Below, in pieces: positions 364 to 57,102 of a DNA stretch of 64,000 nucleotides (positions are counted from its first letter, which is position 1; each line of letters starts with the position of its first letter). The translations under genes were made by a program, and so were the position numbers. The notes under the pieces are model-generated. The model worked only from the letters and a program-made list of their open reading frames with translations, was not told where the DNA came from and did no database searches. Location: assembly GCA_964036195.1 (NCBI GenBank), contig OZ038458.1, forward strand, positions 19,109,832 to 19,173,831. The letters are read 5' to 3'. The stretch comes from Sphaerolaimus hirsutus. Taxonomy: Eukaryota; Nematoda; Chromadorea; Monhysterida; Sphaerolaimidae.

Positions 364-368
364 TCTCT

Positions 369-563
369 GGGGGCAGTCCCAAGCCCTGTAAAGTGTAAAG
401 TAAAGTGTCAAACGTAAAGTCAAATGCAAAGTAAAGTGTCAATCAAAACAAAAAAGAAAAGATTTTATTACTGAACTTTGCATGACAATTGACAGTTTAC
501 TTTGCATTTGACTTTACATTTGACACTTTACTTTACACTTTACAGGGCTTGGGACTGGCACCT
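369..563. repeat. Palindromic MITE, introner-like family (copy 1)
   Basis: The two arms are inverted repeats. The left arm reads GGGCAGTCCCAAGCCCTGTA and the right arm ends CAGGGCTTGGGACTGGCACC, with tracts of AAAGTGTCAAA type in between. The outer end contains AG-GTGCC, usable as a splice donor, and the inner end contains a TTTACAG acceptor-like string. It is the same family as the element that forms intron 3 of the L54 gene (9307-9482). No gene was recognised around this copy. Confidence 0.8.
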
Positions 564-9228: not shown

Positions 9229-10396
9229 CTGTAATATTCTCGTCTGTAGCGCCGCCAAAACAACCAGCCATCTTTATCCGGGTCCAATTCTTCTGCGCGT
9301 TTCGGCCTGGGCAGTCCCTGACCCTGTAAAATGCCCTGTAAAATGTCATGCAAAGTGTCAAAAGTCACGTAAAATGCCCTACAAAATGGTAACTCGGTTG
9401 CCATTTTGCAGGGCATTTTACGTGACTTTTGACACTTTGCATGACATTTGACAGGATATTTTACAGGGTCTGGGATTGGCACCTGCCCAGCGACAGTTCC
9501 CAAAGCCAATCGGGATAATCGCTGTCTTCACCCAGTTTTATGTCGGATCCTACAGTATTATTTAAATACCACTGTATAAAGATTTAAGATACAGCAAAAT
9601 TACTGTTCTGATTGTGCAACCAGAAAATGAATTTATTGGTTTAGATATGCCAGGGAAAAGATTGTTATAAAATGTCTGAAAGAAAATTCTTTAGTTTTTA
9701 ATAGATTATCAAAAACACACTACATCATAAAAAATAAAAGGTGAACTACTCTGACGCTTCACAAGGAGTGCAGCGCCAGATTTTGCCATCTGAAATTCAT
9801 GACTAGTGATGTCAAAGCGCCAAGGCGCTAGTGCCGCGAAATAGAGCGCCGTAGTGACTCCTGGCGACTCCTGGAACCCCTGGCACTCTTTCCATCACTA
9901 TTCATGAGAATAATTTTTAAAAATTTCCATCGAATTTACTCAGCGCAAGAAAATATTGCTTGGCAATCAAGCAAAATACATCACTAAAATTCGTATAAAA
10001 TATAAACAAAGTAAAAATCGAAAAACTAACCATCCTTCATGTAATTTATACAGCAGTAGTCAATAATTCTGTCCACATCTGTGCTCACGTAACTTTTGTA
10101 ACTTTTATCCGGCAAATCTTCGGCTGGTGGAGGTACGTAATCTTCGTTTTTGCTGCTGCCTGCAATCAAACATTTATTTGGAGTCAAAAATGGATGAATC
10201 AATGATCTTAACAAGTTGTACCTAAACGATACACTCTTGGCACTCATCCAAACATGATTAAATAGTCATTTCCTAGAGGAGTAAAATAAATGACACTGAA
10301 CTCACACGGCCTGCAGACTAAAGATACCCGCTTCCCGACGGAACGCAAACGTCCAAGGTTTTTTATTGTAAGGGATCGTGAAATGATTTGATTCAT
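9229..10396 (-). CDS. MRPL54: Mitochondrial large-subunit ribosomal protein mL54 (3' end not found)
   Basis: Structural protein of the mitochondrial ribosome. Exons on the minus strand are 10396-10306, 10159-10031, 9549-9483 and 9306-9229, with all phases consistent (121 codons). The N-terminus, MNQIISRSLTIKNLGRLRSV, is Arg/Ser-rich and acid-free, as expected of a mitochondrial presequence. The family signature follows: DSDYPDWLWELSLG, then AEELDPDKDGWLFWRRYRRE, matching the L54 pattern (EYPEWL...EELDP...YWRRLRR). The basic C-terminal tail normally after this is on a further exon I could not place (open in phase 2 at the GTGAAT donor below 9229). Intron 3 (9307-9482) is entirely a MITE, and intron 2 carries another small element (9804-9900). 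It is divergent from the HINT3 gene. Confidence 0.85.
9307..9482 (-). mobile_element. Introner-like MITE that constitutes MRPL54 intron 3
   Basis: On the minus strand the intron starts GTGCCAATCCCAGACCCTGT and ends GGGTCAGGGACTGCCCAG. These are the two inverted ends of one palindromic element whose arms carry TGTCATGCAAAGTGTC-type tracts. The exon bases just before the donor (CTGGGCAG) are the reverse complement of the last intron bases (CTGCCCAG). Spliced phases join ...LSLGR with PKRAEEL... exactly as the L54 family requires. The element therefore supplies both splice sites and leaves no other intron sequence. Relatives are at 369-563, 19980-20254, 24892-25012, 32141-32288, 44434-44588, 50302-50619 and elsewhere. 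Confidence 0.85.
9804..9900. mobile_element. Tiny TAGTGATG-type MITE (97 bp) with GGCGCC motif
   Basis: The ends TAGTGATGTCAAAGCGCC and CTTTCCATCACTA are inverted and flanked by TTCATGAC (9796-9803) and TTCATGAG (9901-9908). The interior repeats GGCGCTAG/TGGCGACTCC. It lies in MRPL54 intron 2. Longer relatives are at 15480-15637 and 45592-46522. Confidence 0.75.
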
Positions 10397-12446: not shown

Positions 12447-13522
12447 TAGGGTTGGGGAACCGACCCGAACCGAACCGAGCACTATTTTGTAGCCGAGAAC
12501 CGAGAACCGGAACCGAGCTTGAGAACCGAACCGGAACCGAGAACCGACACTTATACCCGGAACCGAAGTAAATACCCAAAAGAACCGAAATTTTCTGGGA
12601 ATCTTAAAGTTTTTAAACAGCGTTTTTTCAACACCTACATTTAAACCTTTAAACAGCAGCTGAACATATTGGTGCATGTTCAGAATTGCAAAATTCATCT
12701 GTTTGCAAAATGATTGCGCGGGAGCGTGTAATTTCACATATACTCCAGCGAAATTACACCTTACGATGAAATCTACCATATCCCACCTGAATAAAAGAAC
12801 AAACATAAAAAAATTTCATCATATTTTTCAAATTGCTTTGATAAATATGATGAAATTTTTTTATGTATGTTCGTTTATTCAGATGGGATATGGTAGACTT
12901 CATTGTAAGGTGTAATGTTGCTGCAGTATACACATTATTACTGGTAGTAGTTTTCATTGGTTTTGTGGCAGTTTTAACTGTAGTTGGCAAGTTATTTATG
13001 TTTGTACTCAAAATAATACGCGTACTCACTCGCGTACTACATAAATACATTTACGTTTCCTCCAGAAAAAAAGACCAGTACTGATTTACTCGTGTACGTT
13101 TTGAAAGTACGCGAGTACAGAAAACGTATATGTTTGCTTTTACACTTTTTTTAAATACCACTATTATTATAACAACTCTGATTTCTGCATTCTACCATGA
13201 ATTAATAAGCTGTGATATGCTCCTGTAGTATGAAAAATCCAACCAATGTACTTACACATGTAAACTTGGGTATATTGTTTTTCTGTTGTTCAGCCGATTA
13301 TTACCCGATACCCGGTTATTTTATTACCCGATACCCGGTTATTTTATTACCCGGAACCGAAATTTTGATCATTTTAGAACCGAAAGAACCGAACCGGAAC
13401 CGAGTTTAAGCACCGAACCGAGAACCGGAACCGAAAATTTTCAGGAACCGAGAATCGATATTCGAACCGAAATCTTTTGGAACCGAGAACCGGAACCGAA
13501 AATTTTGAAATTCCCAACCCTA
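12447..13522. mobile_element. TAGGGTTGG-type hAT-like element with AACCGG iterations
   Basis: The ends TAGGGTTGGGG and TTCCCAACCCTA are flanked by an exact 8-bp duplication GTGTGGGA at 12439-12446 and 13523-13530. Both subterminal regions repeat GAACCGGAACCGA/GAACCGAGAACC. A different MITE is nested at about 12745-12930. The element fills most of the HINT3-GALK2 spacer. Confidence 0.88.
12745..12930. repeat. Nested palindromic MITE (ATTACACC / GATGAAATCTACCATA family)
   Basis: The left arm GAAATTACACCTTACGATGA and the right arm ending AAGGTGTAATGTTGC are inverted around TTTCATCATATTT...AAATATGATGAAA. The same arms occur at 34783-34974, 23981-24140, 17716-17890 and 26972-27020. It lies inside the 12447-13522 element. 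Confidence 0.7.
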
Positions 13523-19979: not shown

Positions 19980-20254
19980 GTACCACTCCAGGCCCTGTAA
20001 AGTGTCAAATGTCATGCAAAAGTTGCGTAAAAACCGTGTAATGGCGCCGCAGGCCTGTATAGATAGTTAATTTTACACCATGGCACTTGAGTTACTCTTG
20101 AGTGTGATGCTTTAAAAAAAATTTGTTGTGTTGTTATTAGTTGACATTGAGTTGACTCGAATTTGCTATGTCTGGGCCCAAAATGGCCCTAATAAACCTC
20201 GTTTTGACACTTAACTTGACATTTGACATTTTACAGTGTCTGAGAGTGCCCCCA
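19980..20254. repeat. Introner-family MITE abutting the first recognised COASY exon
   Basis: The left arm GTACCACTCCAGGCCCTGTA and right arm GACATTTTACAGTGTCTGAG...GCCCCCAG are the inverted ends of the introner-like family. The interior holds a TTGACATTGAGTTGAC piece of another MITE. The right end stops at CCCCCAG, directly against open coding sequence of the CoA synthase, so the element end could be used as its splice acceptor. Confidence 0.65.
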
Positions 20255-23200
20255 GCAGTTCGTATTTTCTACCACCGTCCAAGCCCGTTCAATCAACTCG
20301 AATTTGTCGCGACTCGTTCAGCTCGAAGCACCTGGCGCGGCTAATCGTCATGTCGTCGGCGGTCGCTGCCGCAGCGCTGGTGGTCACCAAGCGGCACAGT
20401 TTGTCTGCCGCTGGCATCGACACCCTTTATAGGCGGGTGTTTGAGAGACTGCCCTCTGGGTGAGTATAGTGCGAGTGGTTTTTTGTGGTTGGTGTGACTT
20501 AGGCCCTGCACACACTAGTTGGCAGCGACGCCAAATATCGGCTTGTTATGGTCCCATTTAAAAGTCTTGCTGACTAGTAACACTACGCATTATTGTATTT
20601 ATTTACATGTAACGCAAAACTTAAATGAATGTGTATATGTACGGCAGTATTTTTTTTCAAAACTACATTTTGAAACATGACTGAACGCTTTTGCATTTGA
20701 ATGTTGTCGTCGTGGCTGAAACCCGGTGCCCGTGACTCATATTTACCCGGTGCTCATGTAAGCCCGGTGTCCATGTAGACCCGGTGCTCATCCTATGCCT
20801 AAATGGGGTTACGGTGAGCACCGGGGGGGGGGGGATATGGCGGTGCAGCACCGCGGATTAGCAGCATCGGCTTACACATCAAGAGTGTGTGCCGACGGCC
20901 GCAAGATCGGCAAACATCAAACACAAAGGATGTTCATCAGCAACCTTTGAATTGGGATGGGAACCGGTTGACATTTGGTGTCGTTGGCAACGAGCTGTGT
21001 AAGGAGGGCCATTGGTGCACATTAGTAGCTGGGTATTTCGATGCTAAATTTGCACCCATGACCGTCGCATTGGTATCGCTACACTAGTACGCTCATTGTT
21101 CATTGATAGTTGACCGATTTCACTAAGGTTTGTCCAATTCAAATTTCAGAAATTGCCGCCTGTACATCGCATTGGATATGGAATCGCTGGCTGATCCGTC
21201 CGCATCTTGCTGTTAGTTTGATAAACAGTTTGTAGTTCTGGGGCGCGCGCGAGAAAATAAGTCTTCGGACGAGTTGACAAATTTTGGAATGTCAATTTTA
21301 TAAAAGGACGCTATTTGAGACGTTGCCGTTCCTTTCGTTGCTTGCCTATGGTAGATGAGTACGTAGATATTTTTTATGCGTCAGTTACGTTTTAGTCTTC
21401 GGACTGAGCTCGTTACAAAGAATTGTGCCGTATTTTTTATGAAAAATGTATGTAAAATTGTTGACGATTTTACTCGGTGTGAGCAATGTAATGCCGCGAG
21501 AGAGAAAATGAGAATTTTTCGGGTTTTTCAATTATGGTGAATTTCATTGTAAGCTGATCGGTCCGTTCGTCCAGTGTACCATTAACATACTGAAGTGGCA
21601 TTTAAACGGGAATAACATGAACGTGAAATATGTTTTTTTCCATAAACAATCAACCCTAAAATCGATGAACTGTGATCCGTGAGGGGTTCGTGGTGACATT
21701 CGTAGGCTCCACCTCATGGCGCCAGTGGCGTTGACGCTAGCGCGAAAAATCGCTGCGTATGTCTTTATGCCTTATATAGCTTGAGTGACACCTTTTTTAT
21801 CTCCCTCAGATGCGATTTTTAGTAAAGTAGATTTTGATTTAAATTAATATACCATATTTTAAAGCGATTATCGACAATCACCAACAGTCACTACATATGA
21901 TAAAATCCAGGGGTTTCCAATGGGGGGGCTCCAAACCCCCAACCCCCCAACCCCCAACCCCCCAACCCCTCCGGCTCCAACCCCCCCCCGGCTCCAACCC
22001 CCCAAACCCCCCCCCCNNNNNNNNNNNNNNNNNNNNNNNNNNNNNNNNNNNNNNNNNNNNNNNNNNNNNNNNNNNNNNNNNNNNNNNNNNNNNNNNNNNN
22101 NNNNNNNNNNNNNNNNNNNNNNNNNNNNNNNNNNNNNNNNNNNNNNNNNNNNNNNNNNNNNNNNNNNNNNNNNNNNNNNNNNNNNNNNNNNNNNNNNNNN
22201 NNNNNNNNNNNNNNNNCGATTATCGACAATCACCAACAGTGACTACATATAATAAAATCCAGGGGTTTCAAATGGGGGGCTCCAACCCCCCCCCCGGCTC
22301 CAACCCCCCCCCCCGGCTCCAACCCCCCCCCCCGGCTCCAACCCCCCCACCCCAAACCCCCCAACCCCCCCCAACACCCCCCCAACATCTATCTCTCCGG
22401 TGAAGCGATTTTCTATCTATCGAGCCCCCCAGAGGGTCAAAATCCTGTAGACCCCTGATAAAATCTCACTACACCCAGCCAACGGCCTGGACGACGACTG
22501 GCGCAACAGCCTAATCGACTACGCGTCCTTTGTCTACGCCGACTCGCAGTTGAGCACGCACTTGGCGGCGGGCGGGCGGCCCGACGTCGACGTGAGGCTC
22601 CTGGCGCAGTTCATGAAGCCAGGCCAAAGTTCAGCTTGGCCACGCTGTGTGGCGTCGGGAAGAGCGGGGTGGAGGTGGTTGGTTTGGGGGGGGATTTGGG
22701 TGGGTTTTGGATTGGAATTTGGCAAAGTCGGAGTCGGGATCGTTGTCTGGATAGGCATCGGGAATGTAAAATGTCGTGATTCGGAATCGGGAATCCGTTT
22801 CAACCACATAGTGGTTGTGTGTGTTTTTGAAAAGCAATGTGGCCCGATCCATTTTCTAATTTCAACCGGTCACTCTATCAACCATTTTTGCCCTAATGGG
22901 CCTACATCGCAAATTCGTGTCAACTCAGTGTCAATTTAAAAAAAAAAATTGTCAAGCATCACACTTAGCAGAAACAGTGAAAATTAAGTGTCAAGATGTA
23001 AATAAAATTAACTATGCTATACCAGACAGGAAAATTGAAATCACATCATACACTAAAATTCAATTGATATCCAGCGTGTGTGGCGCCAATCATTCAACCA
23101 TTCGCCTTCCACCCACCAAAAAAGTCCACATCCCAACAATCAACCCCCGCCCCGCAGCCCGAAGAAGCCCTCACCCCGCGTCCAATAAAATGGCTGTACT

Positions 23201-26200
23201 TCGACGGCTGCACGGCTCCGCCCACTATGGTCGATGAGGCCAACGAAATGGGCATCGACGTCGAATGTTTGCGCGTTTGCCCGCCGGAAATGCAAGAGCC
23301 TAAGGCGGGTGGATTGAGGAAAAGGCCTAGTCAGTCTGAGTTGCTACCGCCGCCTGTTGTGGAGAGGGGCATAGTTTTGAGTTGGTTTTGAGCGGTTGTT
23401 GTTGTTGTTTTGTTTTTTTTGTTGGGGGGGGTGTTAATTAGAGAGTTTTTGTGTTTTGAATTTTGGGGATAACTGTATTGTGATTTGCACCACCAATCTG
23501 AAGTCGTCGAGTTAACGATGTGGGACGGTGCCTGGATGGCAAAAATTATCTTACTTGGCGTCATTTGCGAGCTGGGGGGGCCTAAATTCTGATCATGTTA
23601 GCGCCACACTCTATTATGTATAGAGAAGTATACGAATGTATACATTCGTTTTCACTGGAACCCCTCAAATTCGCATCAAGTAAATAACTAAAAATAATGA
23701 AATGTAAAAATCGAAAAGTTACAATTGAGCCCTCGAAGGGTGCGGGACTAGTTCGTGACCTCGTGACACCAATCCCAACCCAAATCACCCCGCAGAGGCA
23801 ACCCCATAGCCTCGGTCCCTGGCGTTGTAATCGGGGGCACCTTCGACCGGCTGCACAACGGGCACAAGATGCTGATCACCACCGCCGCGCTGGTCGCCAC
23901 CGAGCAGTTCACCTGCGGCGTGACCGACGGCCCCGCCATGCTCGCTAGTGGGTTTGACTTTGGTTGAAGGGTATATGGTATACTCGGTCGACATCACACT
24001 TAGTATAGAAACCTACCGTAACCCATCTGAATAATGAACCAAACATTATAGTTTTGTATTATAATATTTCGTTTTTACTATGGAATCATTTATTACGAAA
24101 TTTATCACAATTTTATTCATTGAATTATGGTAGGATTCTGTACACACTTTGCGGTCGCCCGAGTATTTTTAGTTTTTAGAGTTTTAAGAATTTTTTGGAT
24201 TGAAGTGGATATTGTGGCGAAAAATTGCAGCCAAAGTTCTGTGGGAACTGATCGATCCTGTGGAGACCCGAGTGAAGAATGTGATGGAGTTTGTGCACGA
24301 TATCGACCCGATTCTGAGGTGAGTTACAAAGTATTAAAATCATTTTAGAAGTGAGAAGTAAGAAGTACAAACCGAAATGAAATTAGGAGTGTGAAATAAA
24401 AAAATGAAAAAAATTAGAAGTGGGAAGTTAAATGCCAGGTAAAAAGTTAAAAGCGACGTCGATTTAAAACTTGAAAGAAAGTGAGAAATTAAAGAGGAAA
24501 GTTAAAATTATACTTCGTTTGTAACTGTCTACTTATCATTTCACTTAACACTTCTAAATTTACTTTTTCAAACTTTTCTCAAATACTTTTTACTCACTTC
24601 GAAAGTGTTTTTTTTACTTCTCCACTTACGGAATTGGCACCTGTTGCTTCTATCAAATAAGCAAAATACTCAATGATTCACAAAAAACTGACACCCACCC
24701 CCTCGCAGCCTGAAAGTGGTGCCAATCACTGACATGTATGGGCCATCTATCACTGATACAAACCTACAGGTTATTGTTGCCACCTGCGAGACTGCTGAAG
24801 GTGCGGACAAAGTCAATGTTAAAAGGGAGGAAAATGGGGTTGGTGCCAATAACCATTTGATTGAATTCACGGAGCAGTTCTGGAACCTATTAAGCCAAGA
24901 GTGAAATGTCATGTAAAATGTCAACCAAAATAAAAATGGTAAATATTACTAATTTTTTTGTATGACATTTTACAAGACATTTGACACATTACACGGTGCG
25001 GGACTAACACACTGGTGACTTGTTGACGATCGCAATCGGTCAACCTAGTCTAGCAGTTAACTAATCTGTTCATCGGTGTTTGGAACAGCATTGAATTTCA
25101 CCGATGGTCAACTAATACACATTGGTCAATCAATCACTAGTTACAACACTTTTAACAATTTATTAAATGCCAACTATCCCCAATCAGTTGTGCCACCTGC
25201 GGCCGTACGTGATCGGTTTGGCTGACGATTGCGGCCGCCAAGACATGAGCGAAGATTTCAAAGTGAGCTCCTGGAAAAGTCGCAGGGACATGCTCGGCAC
25301 CTTGTTGCGTCCGGTGAAAGTCCGGGTTAGATATTTTTTACGGGTTTTTTTTCGCTTTTATTTATTGTTGGCAATGGACATTGGATTTTACTACTTTTTG
25401 GCAAAAATGAACGTGTTTGGTAACGCAATCGATCTAGTGCGGGTTTTTTGACATTTGTTTATTGAACAAAAGATTTTTTTGTTCACAGCGAGCTTGCAAC
25501 TTAGTTAACGCGGATTGTTTGAGTTAAATATAACTTTTGTTTCCTCACAAACCGTTCCTGTTTCCTGGATCAAAAACAAGCAACTGAATCGAATTGTCGC
25601 TCAACCATACTCGAATACTGAATAGGACGATTAATCGTACCGAAAATATTAGAGTAGAGCAATTTTCCAGCATAAATATCAAATATCGACGTCGAGTATA
25701 TTTTAAGATATCTCAGGAGCCGTAGCAGAACAAAAACATCACATTTTCCTCTATAGTCCACTAACAGGACGGTGCCCTATTCCGCATTTTGGCCTATTTC
25801 GCATTTTGGCTCATCCCGCACATTTAGCTGCCCATCCCGCATTTTGGCCTATCCCGCATTTTGGCCTATCCCGCATCTTGCCGGTGTAATGTGCGAGATA
25901 GGCAGTGTGCGTGATGGGTTTGTGTGCGGGTTAGGCCAAAATGCGGAATAGGCCAAAATGCGGAATAGTTCACTCTTGGTATGGAACTCCCCATGTGCGC
26001 CGCACGTGCAAATCACACGCGACGCATGTCAATTGCCCCCCCATACTTAATTGCTTATCCGGACGGACAGCTAAATAGATAAACGGCTAAATAATGATAA
26101 AATTAGGAACGTAGATACGATGTTGATGCCGTTCAGATGCATTACAAATCAACATTGTTAATATTGATTTAAGTTAAATCAATATTGATTTAAGACGTTG

Positions 26201-28787
26201 AGCTTAGGCATGCACATTGTGGCCTGGAATTTCCTGAAAAATTCAAAAAGTCGTTTTGGAGTTTTTAATTTTCGAATTTTTTGATATTTTTGAAAAATGA
26301 ATCGATTTTTATGCGTTTCACCTCGTGATCAAAAATTCGAAAAAGCCAAAAAAATGGAAAATTCAAAAATGTTTTCAAATTTTCAAATCTTTGTTTTGCC
26401 ATCGTTAGTGAATACTGCAACCATTTTTATGAACATGTTTTGCACCTGCGTCTATAAATATTCGAAGTTGTAATGAGGAACTCCAAAAAGACTTTTTGAA
26501 TTTTTCAGGGAATTCAAGGCCACAATGTGCATGCCTAAGCTCAACGTCTTAATTTAACTTAAATCAATATCAACAACGTTGATTTGTAATGCATCTGAAC
26601 GGCATCAACATCGTATCTACGTTCCTAATTTTATAATTATTTAGCCGTTTATCTATTTAGCTGTCTGTCCGGATAAGCAATTAAGTATGGGGGCAACTGT
26701 GGGGGGGGGGGCAATTGACATGCGTCGCGTGTGATTTGCACGTGCGGCGCACATGGGGAGTGCCATACCAAGAGTGCACTATTCCGCATTTTGGCCTATT
26801 CCACATTTTGGCCTATCCCGCACACAAACCCATCACGCACACTGCCTATCTCGCACATTACACCGGCAAGATGCGGGATAGGCCAAAATGCGGGATGGGC
26901 AGCCAAATGTGCGGGATGAGCCAAAATGCGGAATAGGCCAAAATGCGGAATAGGCATGCGCCCACTAACAGCACACTTTACAATGAAATCTACCGTATAC
27001 CATCTGAATAACGAAACAAAAAGTTTTTTTTTGATCAAATTAGATTGCTTTCCATATGGGTGAATTCAGTGCGCGATTTTTCACGTAACCTTATTTATCG
27101 AAATGTGGTCAATAGTTTGTTTGCATAGCGTTCAATCTCACAACTGTACCCAAAATCCCTTGCCAGGCGGCCTTCGGTCCGGGCCGGTACATAATCGGTT
27201 TGACGGGCGGCATCTGCAGCGGCAAGACGCACATCGCCGGCGACCTGCGCGAACTCGGCGCCAGGGTGATCGACTGCGACAAGATGGGCCACCAGGCGTA
27301 CAAGAGTGGCTCCGAGTGCTTTAATAGGTCTTTTGGGGCGGCGATTTTGCTATATAGATGGGAATCGATTCAGTGTGCTGGTTGTCTTGAGGGTTGGAAA
27401 TATAAGTCTAGCTAAACGATTATCGAGAAGCATCCTGTTGAAACTCCCAAACTGAAACACCCTAATTTTCAAATTCAATTAAAAAACTGAAAATTCGGCT
27501 TGCGAAATATCAGGGCAGAAATTATATTTTTTGAGCATTATTCCGAGCGTGCACGTGTTTTCCATCAATAACTCAGTTTCTTCCTGGCGCAGGGTGGTCG
27601 AGCGATTTGGTAATGATGTTGTAGATCCAGAAACTGGTGAAGTTGACAGACAGAAACTCGCTTTTACGGCATACTCATCACCGGTGAGTGAAAAAGGAAC
27701 TTCTCGTTTTTTTGCTGATTTTCAAGGTTTTTTGCTATTTCTGTTTTTGTTTTTGTTTTAGAAAGGAATGGGCGATCTGAGCAGCATCGTATGGCCGGAA
27801 ATTTGGAAGGCCGTCACCGAAACAATCACGCACGCGCCGGAAGGTAATGCGTAGTTCACGTTGCTAGTACGCACGCTAGTTGACAACTGAAATTTGACAA
27901 ACTTATGGCTGTTTTAAACTCAAATGCATTTAAAAACGCGTTAATCAGCTTAGGAAATTTCGGTTGTCAACTACGGGCTGTAATGTGTCAGAACGGATAA
28001 ACAGAACTCTGTCTCGATCATTTTGTCCACCGCCATATACAGCACACATTTAGTTCAACTTCTATCATCCTAGCCACAAAAAGCGAGACAAAACCAATCG
28101 TTTTTCAACCACAGATGAGCACGTGTGGGTGTTAGACGCGGCAGTGCTCTTGGAGGCTGGCTGGCACAGGTATTGTGACGAAATTTGGACAGCCGTTGTG
28201 CCGGCGCACGAAGCTGTGCGAAGGTTGAAGCAACGTAATGGACTCACTGAGGCGCAGGTGCGGCGGCGGGTCTTGATAAATATTTACCTGCGACCCCACT
28301 TTAGTTTGGCTCTGTGCCATTACGTATGTAAACCCATCACGCAAGTTAACTAAAATGCATGTAGACGCGGCCCAGCATGCTTAAAATATGCATCAAAACA
28401 CATGACATAGTGATTCTAAATCTATCAAATGTGACAATCTATAAAATTATATAGATGGTTGGGCGGTTTGGGGTTGGGTTACCTGACAGAAAAGCCAATC
28501 AAAAAATGTAAGCAGCTGAAAAGCGTTCAAGAAACCTTGAATAATCACCATCAAAACTCATTGTAGGCAGCATCTCGGCTGGCCGTTCAAACAGACAATT
28601 GTTCGCGGGTGGCCGCGTCCCATGTCGTGTTCACATCGATTTGGCCCAGGGAGCAGACCAAAATGCAGGCATGTGTTGTTTTTGTTTTCGGTCATTTATA
28701 GTGAACTGAATGAGTTACTGTGTTATTTTTATTCAGGTGAAACGTGCCTGGGGCGACTTACATCGCCGACTGTCCGAACAATTTTGA
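20254..28787 (+). CDS. COASY: Bifunctional coenzyme A synthase (PPAT + dephospho-CoA kinase)
   Basis: Last two steps of CoA synthesis: 4'-phosphopantetheine to dephospho-CoA to CoA. Exons: 20254-20459 (candidate ATG 20350), 22479-~22620, 23158-~23320, 23796-23947, 24231-24318, 24709-24838, 25188-25313, 27167-27327, 27593-27683, 27762-27843, 28115-28257, 28567-28668 and 28737-28787. The PPAT nucleotidyltransferase motif GGTFDRLHNGHK is in exon 4, then VPITDMYGPSITD and EDFKVSSWKSRRDMLGTLLRP. The DPCK P-loop GLTGGICSGKT is in exon 8, DAAVLLEAGW in exon 11, and the protein ends in a short basic helix, WGDLHRRLSEQF. From exon 4 to the stop all phases agree. Exon 1 (phase 2) does not fit exon 2 (phase 1), and the 2-3-4 junctions are not settled. 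The last intron has a GC donor (CAG|GCATGT). Confidence 0.92.
21908..22457. mobile_element. CAGGGGT-type hAT-like MITE with internal gap
   Basis: It begins CAGGGGTTTCCAATGG and ends AATCCTGTAGACCCCTG, flanked by ATAAAATC at 21900-21907 and 22458-22465 (8-bp duplication). The interior tandemly repeats CCGGCTCCAACCCCC and ends with CTATCTATC and GAGGGTCAAAATC boxes. It contains the 200-N gap. Its right flank ends only 13 bp before COASY exon 2 (22479). Confidence 0.75.
22017..22216. other. Assembly gap (200 N) flanked by duplicated sequence
   Basis: The 60-odd bases before the CAGGGGT element (from CGATTATCGACAATCACCAA at about 21866) and its first ~25 bases occur again immediately after the gap at 22217-22285, with a few mismatches. 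The gap edges therefore overlap. The two sides are probably two alleles or two unmerged contig ends, not distant sequence. Confidence 0.9.
23981..24140. repeat. MITE of the GTCGACATCACACTTAGTAT family in a COASY intron
   Basis: TATACTCGGTCGACATCACA, AGAAACCTACCGTAACCCATCTG and the rightward ATTGAATTATGGTAGGATTC boxes match the copy at 17716-17890 in a GALK2 intron and, more distantly, 34783-34974. It begins about 35 bp after the exon 4 donor. Confidence 0.55.
24892..25012. repeat. Introner-family MITE in COASY intron 6
   Basis: GTGAAATGTCATGTAAAATG on the left and TATGACATTTTACAAGACAT then CACGGTGCGGGACTAACAC on the right are the family arms in inverted order. The intron donor just upstream (GGG|GTTGGTGCCAAT) also resembles the family terminus GTGCCAATCCC. 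Confidence 0.6.
25768..26961. mobile_element. Fold-back transposon with ~500-bp inverted arms in COASY intron 7
   Basis: About 1.2 kb made of two long inverted arms that meet near 26270-26480. The outer parts iterate CCGCATTTTGGCCTATCCCG. The inner parts share TAGATACGATGTTGATGCCG and a GGAATTTCCTGAAAAATTC / GAATTTTTCAGGGAATTC pair. A 10-bp direct repeat CCACTAACAG flanks it at 25758-25767 and 26962-26971. Long arms and a 9-10-bp duplication are typical of Mutator-like or Foldback elements. No transposase is present. Confidence 0.85.
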
Positions 28788-34782: not shown

Positions 34783-34974
34783 GTACACTCGGCGGACATT
34801 ACACCTTACAATGAAATCTACATATCACATCTGAATAAAAGAACAAGCATAAAACTTTTTTCATCATATCTATCAAAGCAATTTGATAAATATGATGAAA
34901 AAATTTTGATGTTTGTTCTTTTATTCAGATGGGATATGGTAGATTTTATAGTAAATTGTAATGTCGCTGGAGTA
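34783..34974. repeat. Palindromic MITE, ACTCGGCGGACATTACACC family
   Basis: ACTCGGCGGACATTACACCT and the inverted AATGTCGCTGGAGT end a near-perfect hairpin whose loop region is TTCATCATATC...GATATGATGAAA-like. It is the intact version of the copy nested at 12745-12930. Confidence 0.75.
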
Positions 34975-44155: not shown

Positions 44156-44433
44156 CTGAGAGTGGGGTGCATTTGGTAGGGTTGCTGTTGTTGAAATGAG
44201 CGGTGGGCTTGGGAGTGTGTAATTACCGCATTTCCTCCGAAATACCCCCCCCCCACAAGGGGTTTAGTTTTTCAGAGTGATATATTTTGAGGGGGGTTTA
44301 TAGCGAACAACCACCAAAAAACTTACAAAACATTAATCCGACCTGATTTTCACGTTGAGCAACATATCCTTCGTGGGGCGGCGATACGACAGACATATTG
44401 AATAGTTTACGCTGATCTTGCGTTATATCAGAG

Positions 44434-44588
44434 GGCACTCCCAAACCATGTCAAATGTCATGCGAAGTGTCCAACGTAATGTAAAATGCCCTGTGAAATG
44501 GCAAACAGTTTGTAATTTTCTAGGGCATTTTGCATGCCGTTGACACTTTGCATGACATTTGATATTTTACAGGATCTGGGATTGGCAC
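44434..44588. repeat. Introner-family MITE upstream of the transporter
   Basis: GGCACTCCCAAACCATGTCA and the inverted TTACAGGATCTGGGATTGGC ends enclose TGTCATGCGAAGTGTCC and GACACTTTGCATGACATTTG, nearly identical to the arms of the MRPL54 intron element. It lies 280 bp 5' of the first recognised transporter exon, perhaps in its first intron. Confidence 0.75.
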
Positions 44589-49500: not shown

Positions 49501-52500
49501 AAAAATACCAGTAAAGCTCTCTCAAAGTACCACGCTAAAATTGGCGGTGCACTAGTACGCACAAATGCCGATTACGCACATTTTCCCGTTTTTTCACTTG
49601 ACACTTTTTCAAGTGATTTTCAGATATGAGTGAAGTGAAAAAACGTTGCGCAATGACATTAGTGAACTTTTTTCACTTCACTCATATCTGAAAATCACTC
49701 TAAAAATTGTCAAGTGAAAAACGGTGAAAAATGGCTATTTTTGACCATTTTTTCACTTGACACGTTTCCAAGTGATTTTGAGATATGACTGCAGTGAAAA
49801 AAGTTCAAAAATCACCGAAAACACAAGAGATACATTTTTTAAATAAAAATCTTATATTTATTTATATTTTCTCCAGGTTTTTCAGAGAGATTTAATTTTA
49901 TCTTATTTTGGGGGGAAATCTATGAGATAACATTAAATTAATTTGCTGAAAATAATCCTTTTGTGTACCATAACCCCCCAATCATCCAAACCCCACCCAC
50001 CGGGTCCTCAATTTCCTTCTCCAAACCCTCCCAATAATAGCACCCATCAGCAGTTTCAGCCACATTCGTAAAAATTGAATTCTTTTGAAACGTGCGCATG
50101 GCCATCGGATTAGTTTTCATGCTGGTCCCAGGGGCGACGCCGAAAAATCCCGCCTCCGGATTTATTCCATACAAGCGGCCGTCCTCGCCGAAACGCATCC
50201 ACGCGATGTCGTCGCCTGAAATTTTGGAGATTGGGAATGTGTGGAGATTTTGATGGTTGTCATGTTGAGTTACTTGAGGTTTGGTATGCAGATAGGGAGA
50301 ACTCACAGAACTGTAGAGTGCAAAGTGTGAAATGTCATGCAAAGTGTCAAAATGTAAAGTGTCAATTGGAAAATGTAAAGTGTCAATTGCAAAGTTTCAA
50401 ATGCACAGTGTAAAATGTCATGCAAAAATGTCATAAATACATAAATATTGCTCAAAAATTAGGTAGAACGTCAAGTAACAGTCAGTAAGTACAAATTTGT
50501 CAAGTGTCAGGCATTCCGTCAAAAGTTCAGTTTGAAAAAAAAACATATTTTTTATATTTTGATTGACATTTTACATGAAATTTCGCACATTACTTTACAA
50601 AATAATGCAAAAAACACACCAACACATCTGACATGGAACCCGGGCAGCGTAGGCTCCATCATGGCCAGGTTCGTTTTGCCGCACGCCGATGGAAAAGCGG
50701 CGGCCAAAAAATGCTCGGTGCCCTTGGCGTGGGTTACGCCCATGATCTGAGCGGGGTTGCCGGGGGATAAAAGATCCAAGATTGAGCATGGGAGGTTGCA
50801 GATTTTGATAGAAGTTCAAATCATGGGCAAATTTTGACCGGTGATTGATTCCAGATTCGGAACCCATGACAGTGAAACCATGGTGTGAATGGGCCCACAG
50901 TTGACATCGCAAATGACTGTCAACTGAATGTCAACAAAAAACAAACAAAAAAACAACATTTTTTAAGGGTCACACACTTAAATAACAAGAGCTATAAAAT
51001 GAGGTAAGTGTCACAATATGAAATTAACTACCGCATTTCCTCGAAATACCCCCCACAAAATGGGCCGTATGAATTAATATCCCCCCTCGAAATCGCCCCC
51101 CCCCCCAATTTAGTGTTAAGAGAAAGTCAATGACAAAATCTGCGGTTTATGACCCGGGCAAAGCATTACACACGTTAACAACAATAGTGTCTGTGGGCCC
51201 AACATCAATACTCCCAAAAGTAGCATCAAGCGTATCCGATCACCAAGGAATCGCAAACCTCCAAAAAGGCCAATCTTAATCACCCATCAACAGGGTTCAA
51301 ACGGGATTGACCTTTCGGGATCGGGATCGGGATTGGCATTTTTTCGGGATCGGGATTGGGGTCTTGGGATAGAGATTTTGGCCAATGTTTTGGTATCCAC
51401 AGTTATTCATAAAGGTCTCAAAACACTGTTGGATGCCAGAAACGTGGCATAAAATGAACGCTGGGGGTTTGCGTTCACATATTTGCATGCAAAAACATAG
51501 TTTTTTTCACTTTTGATAATTTCCACTCATTTTTCCGGGATCGGGATTCCGGACTTTGGAGTTTCTCGCCATCGGGATCTGAAAAGTTTCGGGATCGGGA
51601 CTGCTAAATCCTGGAATTTCACGGAATCCGGGACCGGGATCCCGTTTGAACCCTACCCATCAACCAAAACACCCACCAGCATGTGCTCAGCAAGCCAGCC
51701 TTCATCCTTGGCAATATTGGACGCAATTCTCAGAGCGAAGCATTTTTTGCCCAGCAACGAGTTGCCGCCGTAACCAGAGCCGAAAGACCAAATCTCTCGC
51801 TCAGCTGGTCTATGGGTGATTAGTACGCGGTCGGGGTTGCACGGCCAGTGGTTTACTACCTTGGCTGCGGGGGGGGGGGGGTATTTGGGTGTTGACTTGA
51901 GGGGTGTGCAGTTGTTTTTAAATGTTTTATATACCGTATTTCCTCGAAATACCCCCGGGGGGTTTATTGTTTCAGAGTGAGAATTTTGAGGGGGGGTTAA
52001 ACGAGGGGGGGGTATTTCGAGGGGGGGGGGGGTTTATTATTTCGCCAGAAATTTTTTGAAATCCCAGTACTAAAATGTAGTCTGAAACGTACGCAGACGT
52101 CGAAAAATGCAACAAAAATCGCCATTTATAAAACTCTAAAGACATTTATAAGTGTGTAGACGTACAAACACTGTTCTCACATAACAGAGTCATCGTTTTT
52201 AACGTGTATTCTGCATTGTCGGGATGACAAACCACAGCCTTTGTCATTTACGTTCTCTATACACTAAATTTGGGGGGGGGTATTTCGAGGGGGGGTTTAT
52301 AAGTTCATAGTGTCCATTTTGAGGGGGGGTATTTCGAGGGGGGGGGGGTATTTCGAGGGGGGGGGTATTTCGAGGAAATACGGTATCTAGTAATTATTCT
52401 TGAGATATAATTTATCTTATGAGATATGATTTATTATCTTTTTTCGATGAAGGATGCCGCCGCACCCCTCTCAAATTTTATTACTGCAGTGACGGAATAG

Positions 52501-55500
52501 AAAGACATCGAAATTCGTGTCAATTAAATCAAGCCAAATTTTGGTTAATAATGTATTTTCAGCATTTCTTATGTGTTAGACCACAGTTTATTTTATATCA
52601 ACTTTACTTTCAACTTACGACACTTTTTTTTCTTGTTTCTGTTAAGTTGAAAGTTTTTTTCTTGTTTCTGTTAAGTGTGATGCTTTTAAAATTCTTTGTG
52701 TTATTTAGTTGACAAGAATTTGCGATGTCAACTAGTGTGTGTGGGTACAAAGTGAACAAACATAAACAGGCTTCAATGCTGCAGGCGACACATGACATAA
52801 AGACTTATGATTCGAAAAGGGCAAAAAATGTGCACAATACTTTTCGACAGAATTCTTTGCAAGTTCCATACCTTAGCCGGGAAATGCGGGCCACGATCGC
52901 CCCATCCTAGACTAAGCCACCTTAAACATAAAACAACCCAAAACTCACTCTTAACCGGCCTGGGCACTCCAACCGAGTGAATGCACCTCACAAAGTCATC
53001 ATCGCCCAACACCTCCAACACCTGGGGGGAGATGCGAGTCATGACGCGCATGCACAGCACCACGTAGTTGGAGTCGGTCAACTGGATGCCGATCTTGGAC
53101 AGGGGCGAGCCGATGGGGCCCATGCAGAATGGGATCACGTACATCATGCGGCCTGAGGGGAGGGAGTTTGCTTTTGATGGGGTTTTTTTCAGGGTCCAAC
53201 GTTCGCATTGGATGAGTTTTGAGCGATTTTTTTATTTGGCAGGCACATTTGCACTTTTTTCTCATATTTTCGCTGCTCATTATTTACATTGTGGGCAGAA
53301 TCGTGATTGTGTTCGGATTTTCTGGTTCCGATTTTTACAGTTTGACCCCGGTTTGCATTGAAAATTTTCTGGGGGCTTTATCTGGGATTTAAAAATATCA
53401 TTAAAAAATATATAAAAAGTTTGTTCAAAATTCATATTTTCTCAGGATTTTCTAGTCTGATTCAATCAGGGACGTATCCAGGATTTTAAAGCGGGGGGGC
53501 GGCGGAGCCCGGCGAACGGGGGGGGGGGGGCTCAGCCCCACCCCTAAAATTTTGCCTTCAAAGTGACGGAATGACGCCATGGCGCCACACCATGCCGCAA
53601 ATGGCGTTGGCGCTGGCGGCAGAAACCGCTGTATGTACGTAAATTAAAAAATAACGTGCCTAGGGTAAAATGCGCGCTTGCGGTAAAAATTTTTTCGCGT
53701 GAAGGTAAAATATTTGATCCCAAAAGTTGCATTTCCTAGTTTTTTCCCAGTCTGACCCCGGAAAGGGGGGGGCTGCAGCCCTCCCCTGGACACGTCCCTG
53801 GATTCAATCATTTTTTTATTTTGAGAGATTTTCTGGGATTCAAAAAGTATCAGAAAATATAAAAAATACAACATTGATATTTATTTACATTTTTCCGGCT
53901 TGTCTCGAGAAAATTGATCTTATTTTTATTTCTTGGCGATTTTCTGACATTATATAAAATCATATTTTATCAAAATCGCCCATTTTCCAATCAGTGTCCC
54001 GAAGTCAGACATAACACCCAATCACGACTTACTTAAGTCCCCAGAACTCAGTCCCCTTGTTACCCCACTCATTACACAGTCCCCAGAAAATGCAAACATA
54101 AATACTGTTCTATGCTGTACTACATGCAGCGAGTGTATCGAAACACTTGTTGTTTACTCGCACAGCATCAAGCTAGCATAGACACAGTATACTAATCGGG
54201 TAGCCAAATAAAATTACTCGGTGCCGGTTTTGCGCATAAATATTTATCTGTAGGCAAACAACAAACTGTCGTACATTAGACAGGCATGTAAATAAATACA
54301 CTAATATTTAAGTTGTATCGACTTGACTGCAATTGCTGTGGCGTGCTACGAAATTTAGTGCTACAAAATAAGCTCGCATGTTTCTGTCTCACAACATTTT
54401 CATGCTAAAGTTTTTGTGTTCGGCGCGCACAAATATGAAACTGGGTTGGCTGGCAGTATGAGGGCAAGTCCTGTTTACTTGTTGGAAACCGTTCATTGCA
54501 TTTACGGATTTGCATGTTTAATTTTGCACATGCGAATTCATGTAGGTTCGCGCCAAGCGTAAAAAAATTCACCCCAACGGAGTCTACTGCATTTTTTCAA
54601 TAATGCCCAACTCAATTTCAAACGCCACATCCAGCCGGAAAAAAATGTCTCAAAAAATATCATACAGTGCAAATTGCAAAACCCCAGCCCCAGTCAATTT
54701 TCTCTCTGCTCATTAATCATGCACTGGGAAAATGCCGCGCAAACAAACATACGCGACAGTGGGCACTTTAAAGTGCATTTTCATTCAATATTTAGAACTT
54801 TATTTAGAGCGTTATCTGATGCAGGCTGGGAAAACTAGATTCCGCTAGCCCCGCTCACATTTCATCAGCGTCAACTGGCGCTGGCGAGTTAGGGCAAATT
54901 AAATAAAATACCTAAGCACACGTGGTATTATCCGGAAAAATATGTGAATTAGTAAACACAGACACACAGTTGGTTTTTTGTCTATTTGGAATAAGTCTCA
55001 AAATGTTCTGTCTTGCAGAGAACATCTTTTCTAGATGTATTTTTGGACAAAACAGTTGTTTTGGAATACCTGAGTAATAAGTGGAAAAAAATCTTTAACC
55101 AGTAAAGTGCCATGTAGAGCGTAAAATGAGCGGTAATATTTGACAAATACATGACATGAACTATTTTTCCAACATTTTACATGTACTTTACGTGACATTC
55201 CTGAGAGTATGGGACATGGCCCTGGTAAAAACAGACAGAAAGCTGGGACAGCGCCATGGTTAGAAAAAGACTGAGAAAAAACTATTGCAAGAATGCATGT
55301 GATTGTGAACGGTAAAGCGAACCAAGGTACAAAAATGCAGGAGAATTACATGAATTTTGGATTGTTCCACAATTGCAAGTTGAAAATGCAATTGATATAA
55401 AATAACAACATAGATTCAGACTCAAACTGAAAGTTAAATAAACAAACTGGTAGTTTATATTGATCCACGCATTTGAGGATTTTGGCCATTAACCTATCAC

Positions 55501-57102
55501 GTAGTGATGTTGAAGGCGGGGCAGGCCTGATACGCACATCTGCCCGTTACGCACATATGCCCGTATTTTCACTTGACACTTTTTCAAGTGATTTTCAGAT
55601 ATGAGTGAAGTGAAAAAAGTTCACTAATGTCATTGCGCAACTTTTTTTAACTCGACTCATATCTGAAAATTACGTCAAAAAGTGTCAAGTGAAAAAACGG
55701 GCATATGTGCGTAACGGGCAGATGTGCGTATCAGGCCTGCCCCACCGGAACCTATGCTGGACGCTGGTGCCCTTCGGTGCCAAGCACCGGGACACCGGTG
55801 CCCTCAAATCACTAGTCGCATGCCGAAATATAAGACAAAGATTGACCGGAATGGCGGCCCACACACTAGTCAACTGGTCCGTGTAAACTTGGATTTCGGC
55901 TTCACGTGTCGCAGAGCGGTCTCCAAATACATATGCGGCAATGTTGAAAAATAGACATTATGGTAAGTGCACTGGAAGATCGCTCTGCGATACGTGAAGC
56001 CGAAATCAGAGTTGACACAGATCAGTTGACACACGCGTGTCAACTAGTGTGTGGGCCGCCAATAAGTGACATTCAATAAAGCGACCCCACCAACCAGCCA
56101 TACATCCGGGAAACCTGGAATCTAATTCCTTCGAAAACTGCTGATTCGACATCCAATGGCCCATTTCCGGGTCGACGCCCGGCGGCGTGTGCACCACCGT
56201 ATCATGCCTGTTCGGCGTGACGATCCAAGTTTTGCTCTCGACGCGCGCCACGTCGCGCGGATCGGTGCGGCACAAAAAACAGTTCTCCAATTTCTCCAAC
56301 GGAGTCAAATTGCCGCGCTCCACCAATTTGTTGATGATTTCTTCGGCCTCGTGCGGAGATCCGTCGCAGATGTAGATGCCGCGCGGACGCATAAGCTCCG
56401 CCTTTTCGGCGACGAAACGTTGCACTTTCCAGGGGAGTTCGTGGAAGTCTCCCTGCGTGGATGCGGGCGGAGTTTGTGTTTGAGTGGATAACTTATACGT
56501 AATAGTGTATTTACTTCCATAGTGTTATGTACATTTACTATTTGTACGTTGACAGTTTGAATAATAATATGAATATCACTTTTTGTTGCCAAGATGGCAA
56601 CAGATGTGCATTAAGCCATTTTAAAATTGATTGTCGTTCAAAGACACTAATCAGACTGGTACAAGCATCGGGTGCTGAACAACACAAATCTTGCACGATC
56701 CGGTGAAAAAATTGCATGAATTTTAGGTGTCAGTAAAATGGAGCCACTGCTTATGGCGTACCTAATTCTGAACAGAAGAGCCACAGAGTCAATACAAGAG
56801 AACTTGAGCATAAGAGAGTCCTCCCCATGGGGGTAATCCAAGGGGTATTTTTCTGATATCGGTATTGTTCAAGGGGATCTATTCAAAAATACACGGCAGT
56901 GGCCAGTTTACAGATGCACACACACGTTTCACAATCACCTTGAGTAATCCCCACCCTGTAAGCCCACTGCCAGCACACAAACCTTGGCAATTGGCAAGTG
57001 TCCAAGCCTCTTGGTGACCACCTCATTGACCACATAAAAAGCGTCATCACTGATTTGCCGCAGCGACATCGAAGGGTGCGGCGGCAGCTGGTCCGTAGAC
57101 AT
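46569..57102 (-). CDS. PEPCK: Phosphoenolpyruvate carboxykinase, GTP type
   Basis: Converts oxaloacetate and GTP to PEP, CO2 and GDP; entry step of gluconeogenesis/glyceroneogenesis. Eleven minus-strand exons: 57102-56983, 56452-56095, 53152-52949, 51864-51677, 50746-50620, 50215-50001, 49428-49220, 48127-47956, 47473-47311, 46994-46882 and 46640-46569. Every junction keeps phase and the total is 646 aa, the family length. Visible motifs: [28 protein letters not shown] (metal/substrate region, ~254-273), P-loop FPSACGKTN (~308-316), [28 protein letters not shown] (R-loop, ~453-471), [15 protein letters not shown] and the helical C-terminus [12 protein letters not shown]. No basic presequence is evident after [10 protein letters not shown], which favours the cytosolic form. 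The introns host at least eight different MITEs. Confidence 0.96.
46733..46853. repeat. GGGGGAATTATTCAAG palindromic repeat in the last PEPCK intron
   Basis: Repeated GGGGGAATTATTCAAGGGGG / GGGGATTATTTAAGGGG words ending in ATCACGGTA occupy most of the intron between 46641 and 46881. They match the ~41400-41806 and 42868-43136 repeats. Confidence 0.6.
48169..48977. repeat. Element iterating AAGTGCACATATCC in PEPCK intron 7
   Basis: CAGCCTATTTGGGGACTTCC and the inverted GTCCCCATTTGGCTG ends, with TTCCAAAAGTTCAC / GTTAACTTTTGGAA next to them. Within, the phrase TTTCATTTC(C/G)(A/T)AAAGTGCACATATCC recurs about six times between 48350 and 48570. No target duplication was seen. Confidence 0.7.
49552..49745. 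repeat. Palindromic MITE, TTTTCACTTGACACTTTTTC family (copy 1)
   Basis: TTTTCACTTGACACTTTTTC then AAGTGATTTTCAGATATGAG is followed by its inverse (CTCATATCTGAAAATCACT, TTGTCAAGTGAAAA), preceded by TACGCACAAATGCC. It is very similar to 55518-55743. Both lie in PEPCK introns. Confidence 0.75.
50302..50619. repeat. Introner-family MITE filling most of PEPCK intron 5
   Basis: GTAGAGTGCAAAGTGTGAAA with TGTCATGCAAAGTGTC iterations on one side and ATTGACATTTTACATGAAAT / GCACATTACTTTAC on the other are inverted family arms. Together they take up about 300 of the 404 intronic bases (50216-50619). The splice sites here are not exactly at the element ends. Confidence 0.65.
51291..51655. mobile_element. 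CAGGGTTCAAACGGG hAT-like MITE with GGATCGGGA iterations
   Basis: CAGGGTTCAAACGGGATTG and GATCCCGTTTGAACCCTA are inverted ends with an exact 8-bp duplication CCCATCAA (51283-51290, 51656-51663). Both subterminal parts repeat GGGATCGGGATCGGGATTGG. It lies in PEPCK intron 4, 14 bp from the end of exon 4. Confidence 0.9.
51934..52383. mobile_element. Palindromic MITE, CCGTATTTCCTCGAAATACC type, TA duplication
   Basis: CCGTATTTCCTCGAAATACC and GGTATTTCGAGGAAATACGG are exact inverses flanked by TA (51932-51933 and 52384-52385). GGGGGGTATTTCGAGG is iterated near both ends. Partial relatives lie at 44224-44300 and 51031-51105. It is in PEPCK intron 3. Confidence 0.85.
52515..52742. repeat. GTCAACTAGTGTG-type repeat in PEPCK intron 3
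   Basis: AATTCGTGTCAATTAAATCA to GCGATGTCAACTAGTGTGTG, with ACCACAGTTTATTTTAT and TGTGATGCTTTTAAAATTCT shared with about 7605-7795. It is a dispersed MITE family. Confidence 0.55.
53467..53800. mobile_element. CAGGGACGTATCC hAT-like MITE (copy 2)
   Basis: CAGGGACGTATCCAGGATTT and CCTGGACACGTCCCTG with a perfect 8-bp duplication GATTCAAT (53459-53466 and 53801-53808). The interior includes ATGGCGCCACACCATG and a GCGCGCTTGCGG remnant. It is in PEPCK intron 2. Confidence 0.92.
55100..55223. repeat. Introner-family MITE in PEPCK intron 2
   Basis: CCAGTAAAGTGCCATGTAGA...AAAATG on the left and ACATTTTACATGTACTTTAC...GAGTATGGGACATGGC on the right are degenerate inverted arms of the family. Confidence 0.55.
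55518..55743. mobile_element. Palindromic MITE, TTTTCACTTGACACTTTTTC family (copy 2), nested
   Basis: GGGGCAGGCCTGATACGCAC and GTGCGTATCAGGCCTGCCCC are exact inverses; the arms continue with TTACGCACATATGCCC and the shared TCACTTGACACTTTTT core. The flanks (TAGTGATGTTGAAGGC left, ACCGGTGCCCTCAAATCACTA right, 55502-55814) are the two ends of a TAGTGATG element, so this copy inserted into an older MITE. Confidence 0.8.
55853..56060. mobile_element. GGCGGCCCACACACTAGTCAAC inverted-repeat MITE
   Basis: GGCGGCCCACACACTAGTCA and TAGTGTGTGGGCCGCC are inverted ends. Inner arms share TTTCGGCTTCACGTGTCGCAGAGC / GCTCTGCGATACGTGAAGCC. It ends 34 bp from the PEPCK exon 2 donor. Confidence 0.75.

Follow-up and report, generated by a model that had tools for sequence, protein, structure and literature searches.

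The window analysed here, a stretch of 64,000 nucleotides, carries on its minus strand a gene for mL54 whose coding sequence is interrupted by a palindromic element (Table 1). Read along the minus strand, the upstream exon ends with CTGGGCAG, the element starts with GTGCCAATCCCAGACC and ends with GGGACTGCCCAG, and the downstream exon resumes with GCCGAAACG. When positions 9307-9482 are deleted, ...DYPDWLWELSLGR is followed directly by PKRAEELDP.... The original prediction that this removal joins ELSLGR to PKRAEELDP in phase was borne out by solved mL54 chains, which match the joined frame with a best E value of 1.2e-8 and without a gap at the junction. Against the Pfam family Ribosomal_L37, the same frame scored 19.3 bits, below the family cut-off of 21.

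The removed segment is an inverted repeat whose arms are separated by a spacer of 3 nt. Its predicted RNA fold reaches -123.6 kcal/mol, against -41.1 kcal/mol (sd 4.1) for shuffled sequences, that is, about 20 standard deviations beyond them, and none of the 200 shuffles equalled it. Together with the family anatomy found genome-wide, these long arms uphold the proposal that the mL54 intron consists of one palindromic MITE copy, and the putative element-derived intron at this locus has the GT-AG form. A CAG triplet stands on both sides of the mL54 copy, which lacks two of the C's that usually terminate the element, and therefore the mirror symmetry between the exon end CTGGGCAG and the intron end CTGCCCAG is due to chance at this site. 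This symmetry had been read as belonging to the element, an idea that we abandoned: the common sequence of the other copies runs from GTGCCA to about TGCCCC, the exon-side CTGGG is absent from them, and nothing but the CWG triplets is common to both flanks.

Table 1. Positions of the mL54 features and of the further family copies within the window
Feature	Positions	Strand	Remarks
mL54 downstream exon segment, encoding PKRAEELDP...	9229-9306	-	reading and protein match
mL54 putative intron	9307-9482	-	GTGCCA...GACTGCC element (9310-9482) and 3' target-site copy CAG (9307-9309)
Hairpin arm 1	9312-9393		82 nt, 91% complementary to 9397-9478
Hairpin arm 2	9397-9478		pairs with 9312-9393
5' target-site copy CAG	9483-9485	-	final bases of the mL54 upstream exon
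mL54 upstream exon segment, encoding ...DYPDWLWELSLG	9483-9549	-	reading and protein match
Second family copy	367-561	-	CAG/CAG, uniform CCCAAGCCCTGTAAAGTG subfamily, beside an N gap
Third family copy	19980-20255	+	longer, CTG/CAG, begins GTACCA
Fourth family copy	44429-44588	-	left triplet CCG, right triplet CTG

The genome containing the window is made up of 762 contigs that total 348 Mb. We obtained 80 alignments from a DNA search and scored 40 of the 2,082 first-look candidates; the 39 scored copies other than that of mL54 were retrieved with about 2.5 kb of flanking sequence on each side (near-duplicate loci are present in this set, namely L014/L015 and L031/L038). In most retrieved copies the common sequence begins with GTGCCA, ends with TGCCCC and is flanked on both sides by C-A/T-G. 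Several copies have altered ends, such as L043, which begins with GAGCCA; this copy, with a GA donor and CAG/CAG triplets, lies in an open cysteine-rich frame. A pattern made of the two ends at a spacing of 142-172 nt matched the genome 1,888 times, against no match for a reversed-pattern control. CWG stands on both sides of 1,322 of these 1,888 copies, with the left and right triplets identical in 1,056 (5'/3' pairs: CAG/CAG 644, CTG/CTG 412, CTG/CAG 200 and CAG/CTG 66; odds ratio 20, p = 4e-114). Such agreement indicates a 3-bp CWG target-site duplication.

As expected for a MITE, the element is thus short, bears terminal inverted repeats and is bordered by a 3-bp duplication of its target. 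The restored target, based on 70 copies (69 retrieved copies and mL54), approximates CGACC-W-GGTCG, a palindrome centred on W, in which the commonest base outside the core reaches only 39-67% per position; 30 of the 70 copies had been selected by a CWG pattern. The target-site duplication of PIF/Harbinger elements is TWA instead of the CWG found here, and the palindromic 3-bp target of the hairpin family is a resemblance only. A very uniform subfamily (TCCCAAGCCCTGTAAAGTGTAAAG), of which the copy at 367-561 is an example, was seemingly active recently and occurs also among copies with unlike triplets. The viral contigs yielded no copy in a search with one 26-base pattern, and no Rfam match was obtained for the 64,000-nt window.

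For each copy, the element and one triplet were removed and the open reading frames across the junction were read. From 34 of the 69 retrieved copies, fifty junction-spanning frames were sent to Pfam, 30 of them in the sense of the element and 20 on the other strand; the frames had been picked by eye, and the first set was biased to the sense strand (8/10). A family above its cut-off was matched by 11 of the 30 element-sense frames but by none of the 20 opposite ones, and 23 of the 34 loci matched no Pfam family above cut-off (the sense loci L027 and L029 had matches under it). With mL54, conserved protein families are restored at 12 loci, and at each of them element and gene have the same orientation (two-sided p = 0.0005). 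The flanking triplets are CAG/CAG at mL54, an aromatic amino acid decarboxylase (L046) and a ligand-gated channel (L030); CTG/CAG at an AP-1/2 beta adaptin (L042) and Vma12 (L044); CTG/CTG at an OATP (L045), CNOT9 (L054), a mitochondrial carrier (L066), EFTUD2 (L057), a kinase-like domain (L061) and OSCP1 (L049); and CAG/CTG at a cation efflux protein (L069).

Restoration at these loci is precise. All 120 residues of the restored CNOT9 frame align without a gap to a solved CNOT9 chain, with the junction after residue 60; EFTUD2 gave a gap-free alignment of 100 residues, and the junctions of AP-2 beta and of the aromatic amino acid decarboxylase are likewise free of gaps. The Pfam match of the mitochondrial carrier passes the junction by 3 residues only. 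What characterizes introners, similar introns whose likeness reaches the splice sites, was therefore found at 12 conserved-gene loci with exact borders, as the introner reading of mL54 had led one to expect: hairpin-MITE copies coincide there exactly with predicted introns, and the genome search suggested together with that reading returned 1,888 exact-ended copies.

At two further loci, L012 and L039, the open reading frames appear to be coding antisense to the element, where the antisense start is GT (L012) or GG (L039); neither antisense frame had a match in Pfam. We considered whether GG-AG splicing of antisense copies could lie behind the CTG/CTG sites and discarded the idea, as all confirmed CTG/CTG copies are in gene sense. 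Scoring of codon usage was too weak to identify the coding strand and placed mL54 itself on the wrong one. The window also contains a PEPCK gene with several exons (about 49941-56524, minus strand). One of its introns (about 50216-50619) was rejected as a member of the family, being a GT-AG intron with merely degenerate family-like sequence within it.

The anatomy of the copies, their number, the duplication of the target, the exact restoration of conserved proteins and the gene-sense orientation are all read directly from the genome, and on these grounds we consider, with a probability of roughly 0.8, that the mL54 segment is an introner, namely a hairpin MITE that inserts at CWG, brings its own 5' splice site and uses the duplicated target as 3' splice site. 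According to this model, a non-autonomous, hairpin-forming DNA transposon would insert at CWG, often inside a palindromic target resembling CGACC-W-GGTCG, and duplicate the 3-bp CWG. In exonic copies that have the orientation of the gene, the initial GTGCCA would serve as the 5' splice site and the second CWG copy would provide the 3' one, so that excision would leave the coding sequence intact. The intron would then be of the GT-AG type after insertion at CAG and of the GT-TG type after insertion at CTG. That the element transposed, that the spliceosome removes it and that TG can be accepted at the 3' end are inferences of the model. The earlier proposal that transposon termini supply both splice sites would accordingly hold for the 5' site, which coincides with the element end, but not for the 3' site, which lies in the target-site copy.

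The TG ending is the most unusual consequence of this model. At 7 of the 12 restored loci the 3' triplet is CTG, which would require a TG-ended intron; none of the equivalent registers of these junctions ends in AG, and the register that starts with GT ends in TG. Among all CWG-flanked copies, the 3' triplet is CTG in 478 of 1,322 and CAG in the other 844. The CTG/CTG loci come from a sample of 20 of the 412 such copies, taken among the matches listed, blind to genes and leaving out the uniform CCAAGCC subfamily; a family was matched by 5 of the 10 copies tested from this sample. From the CAG/CTG class, 10 copies were retrieved and 7 tested, with one match. If left unspliced, the frames of the seven TG loci would meet a stop within the element in six cases, and that of CNOT9 would stay open with a shifted frame. 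Since the 3' splice site would be the duplicated CWG target, it is probable that this single MITE family seeded hundreds of GT-TG introns in the genes of one animal, whose spliceosome would accept UG 3' sites en masse, AG being favoured.

A less likely alternative, to which we nevertheless give some weight, is that only the AG-ended copies are ordinary introner introns, while TG does not act as a splice site in the others: these would be insertions that are tolerated or segregating, or their 3' splice site would be an AG close by, with a small change in the protein. Judging from the sites surveyed in PMC4176328, introns of the GT-TG type are seldom seen elsewhere, and copies with mixed triplets are AG-ended far more often than TG-ended (200 vs 66, p = 7e-17), an excess that also fits AG being the better acceptor under the introner model. 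At six of the seven TG loci the nearest in-frame AG lies 6-51 nt downstream, at the cost of that much coding sequence. In CNOT9 it lies 15 nt downstream and would yield a GT-AG intron, but its use would delete the residues VKTDE, which are identical in the solved CNOT9 chain, and at the mitochondrial carrier locus L066 the 75 nt downstream contain no in-frame AG. Moreover, CNOT9 and OSCP1 are each represented by a single genomic locus, which is the one interrupted by the element, and L045, the only one of the seven TG loci scored for age, diverges by 6.8% from the family consensus. The CNOT9 locus lies at G000 C1:10595475-10596452, the OSCP1 locus at C1:3591583-3592565 and the L066 locus at C3:3810358-3811350. 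Of the seven TG genes, the search for further loci covered CNOT9, OSCP1 and EFTUD2; the last does not provide a clean test of the TG ending, because additional partial loci exist in the genome. These extra partial EFTUD2 exons (G000 C1:20026704-20026904 and C13:19278921-19279103), with 95-100% identity, possibly belong to duplicated genes.

Hairpin-guided, non-spliceosomal removal has been suggested for the nonconventional introns of the euglenid type, and a similar reaction could be imagined for a hairpin stable enough to draw both ends of the element together, the more so with the noncanonical ends of the CTG copies. Hairpin introners are known, besides, in Amoebophrya (PMC7789003). An antisense copy would fold alike, however, and yet the 12 confirmed copies are all in sense; moreover, it is the sense end that starts with GT, whereas the opposite end usually starts with GG. 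We regard this explanation as improbable, and marginally more so is the excision of the copies from DNA during development, in the manner of the internal eliminated sequences of ciliates. Exact removal would in that case leave one target copy whether the triplet is CAG or CTG, and MITEs are a known source of internal eliminated sequences (PMC9942856). Such sequences may lie in either orientation to the gene, but the confirmed copies have a uniform gene-sense orientation that DNA excision does not need, and the known cases are from ciliates, whereas the genes restored here look animal. The orientation of the element thus argues against both DNA excision and a purely hairpin-guided reaction. Least probable of all is that an older mL54 intron merely had its content swapped for the element, creating no new intron there, since nothing but the element lies between the GT and the duplicated CAG of the intron, and copies at CWG sites in other genes have the same anatomy.

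Sequence variation at the ends of the copies was also inspected with regard to the introner model. The T of the donor varies in 48 of 1,370 copies, compared with 33 of 1,355 for a control base nearby; it is thus no better conserved than the control, and the comparison reveals no selection at the 5' splice site. Counted by eye, the donor variants are 31 GC, 15 GA and 2 GG in place of GT. The left and right triplets differ in 266 of 1,322 copies, well above the rates of change of the donor and control bases and more than a clean target-site duplication would produce, suggesting that the middle base is miscopied at insertion. An origin of CTG/CAG copies solely by T-to-A mutation was weakened, because CAG/CTG copies (66) are more numerous than the control base would suggest and because the uniform CCAAGCC subfamily is found, by eye, among the mixed copies.

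Introner families with terminal inverted repeats and short target-site duplications, in which repeated introns are alike up to their splice sites, have been described, with animals among the hosts (Gozashti et al. 2022, PMC9860276). The hairpin family resembles the introners covered there in its similarity up to the splice sites, its terminal inverted repeats, its short target-site duplications and the 5' splice site that it would carry. In a Chrysochromulina family, the introner provides its own 5' splice site and the 3' site comes from a 4-bp target-site duplication (PMC9860276); unlike it, the hairpin family has terminal inverted repeats and a 3-bp CWG duplication, and about one-third of its copies would end in TG. 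A TG-ended introner family was not found in a search of open-access papers, nor in the portion of PMC9860276 on which we draw. Like the hairpin family, the introner elements of Amoebophrya comprise hairpin introns with noncanonical ends, and short direct repeats flank them where exon and intron meet, but they have a broad range of ends and, in what PMC7789003 describes of them, no family-specific inverted repeats, whereas we are dealing here with a single family of fixed ends, starting with GT and ending with A/T-G.

Noncanonical introns at scale are found in other animals. The copepod Eurytemora affinis has many recent, lineage-specific introns with GA and GG donors (PMC5714493), a likeness in scale; there the unusual end is the 5' one and no transposon was reported, whereas in the hairpin family it is the 3' end that would be unusual. 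In Fritillaria borealis, most introns break the GT/AG rule and divergent U2AF paralogs read noncanonical 3' ends (PMC13326754), according to the portion of that work on which we draw; the phenomenon affects most introns in that animal, but a single transposon family here. Single human GT-TG introns, such as those of GNAS and TSPYL2, are the few sites of one survey (PMC4176328); they share the terminal dinucleotides with the introns predicted here, and that source, as far as it deals with them, describes no transposon family. Introners, noncanonical splice sites on the scale of an animal genome and single GT-TG introns are thus already known from these works, and the new point is a large predicted set of GT-TG introns.

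These predictions, drawn from genomic sequence, touch on two long-standing questions: how new introns originate and how strictly AG is needed at their 3' end. A 5' splice site from the element and a 3' site from the target copy would explain how an element of this kind can spread through coding exons. The family offers matched sets of predicted introns of young appearance, in which a single base (CAG or CTG) changes while the context stays the same, some of them in single-locus genes, and, if the model is true, these would form a natural series on the tolerance of a poor new splice site. Mass GT-TG splicing is the strongest claim made here, and a predicted one; should it hold, mobile DNA may create introns that bend the AG rule of splicing.

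The window contains other repeats as well. A palindromic element (TTACACCTTACAATGAAATCTACCATATCCC...), unrelated to the introner family, is present in two copies (12739-12930 and 34795-34965), and a further palindromic family (TTTTTTCACTTGACACTTTTTCAAGTGATTTTCAGATATGAG) also has two (49581-49807 and 55515-55746). In addition, positions 25776-26954 form a 1.2-kb self-complementary stretch with 82% identity to its own reverse complement.
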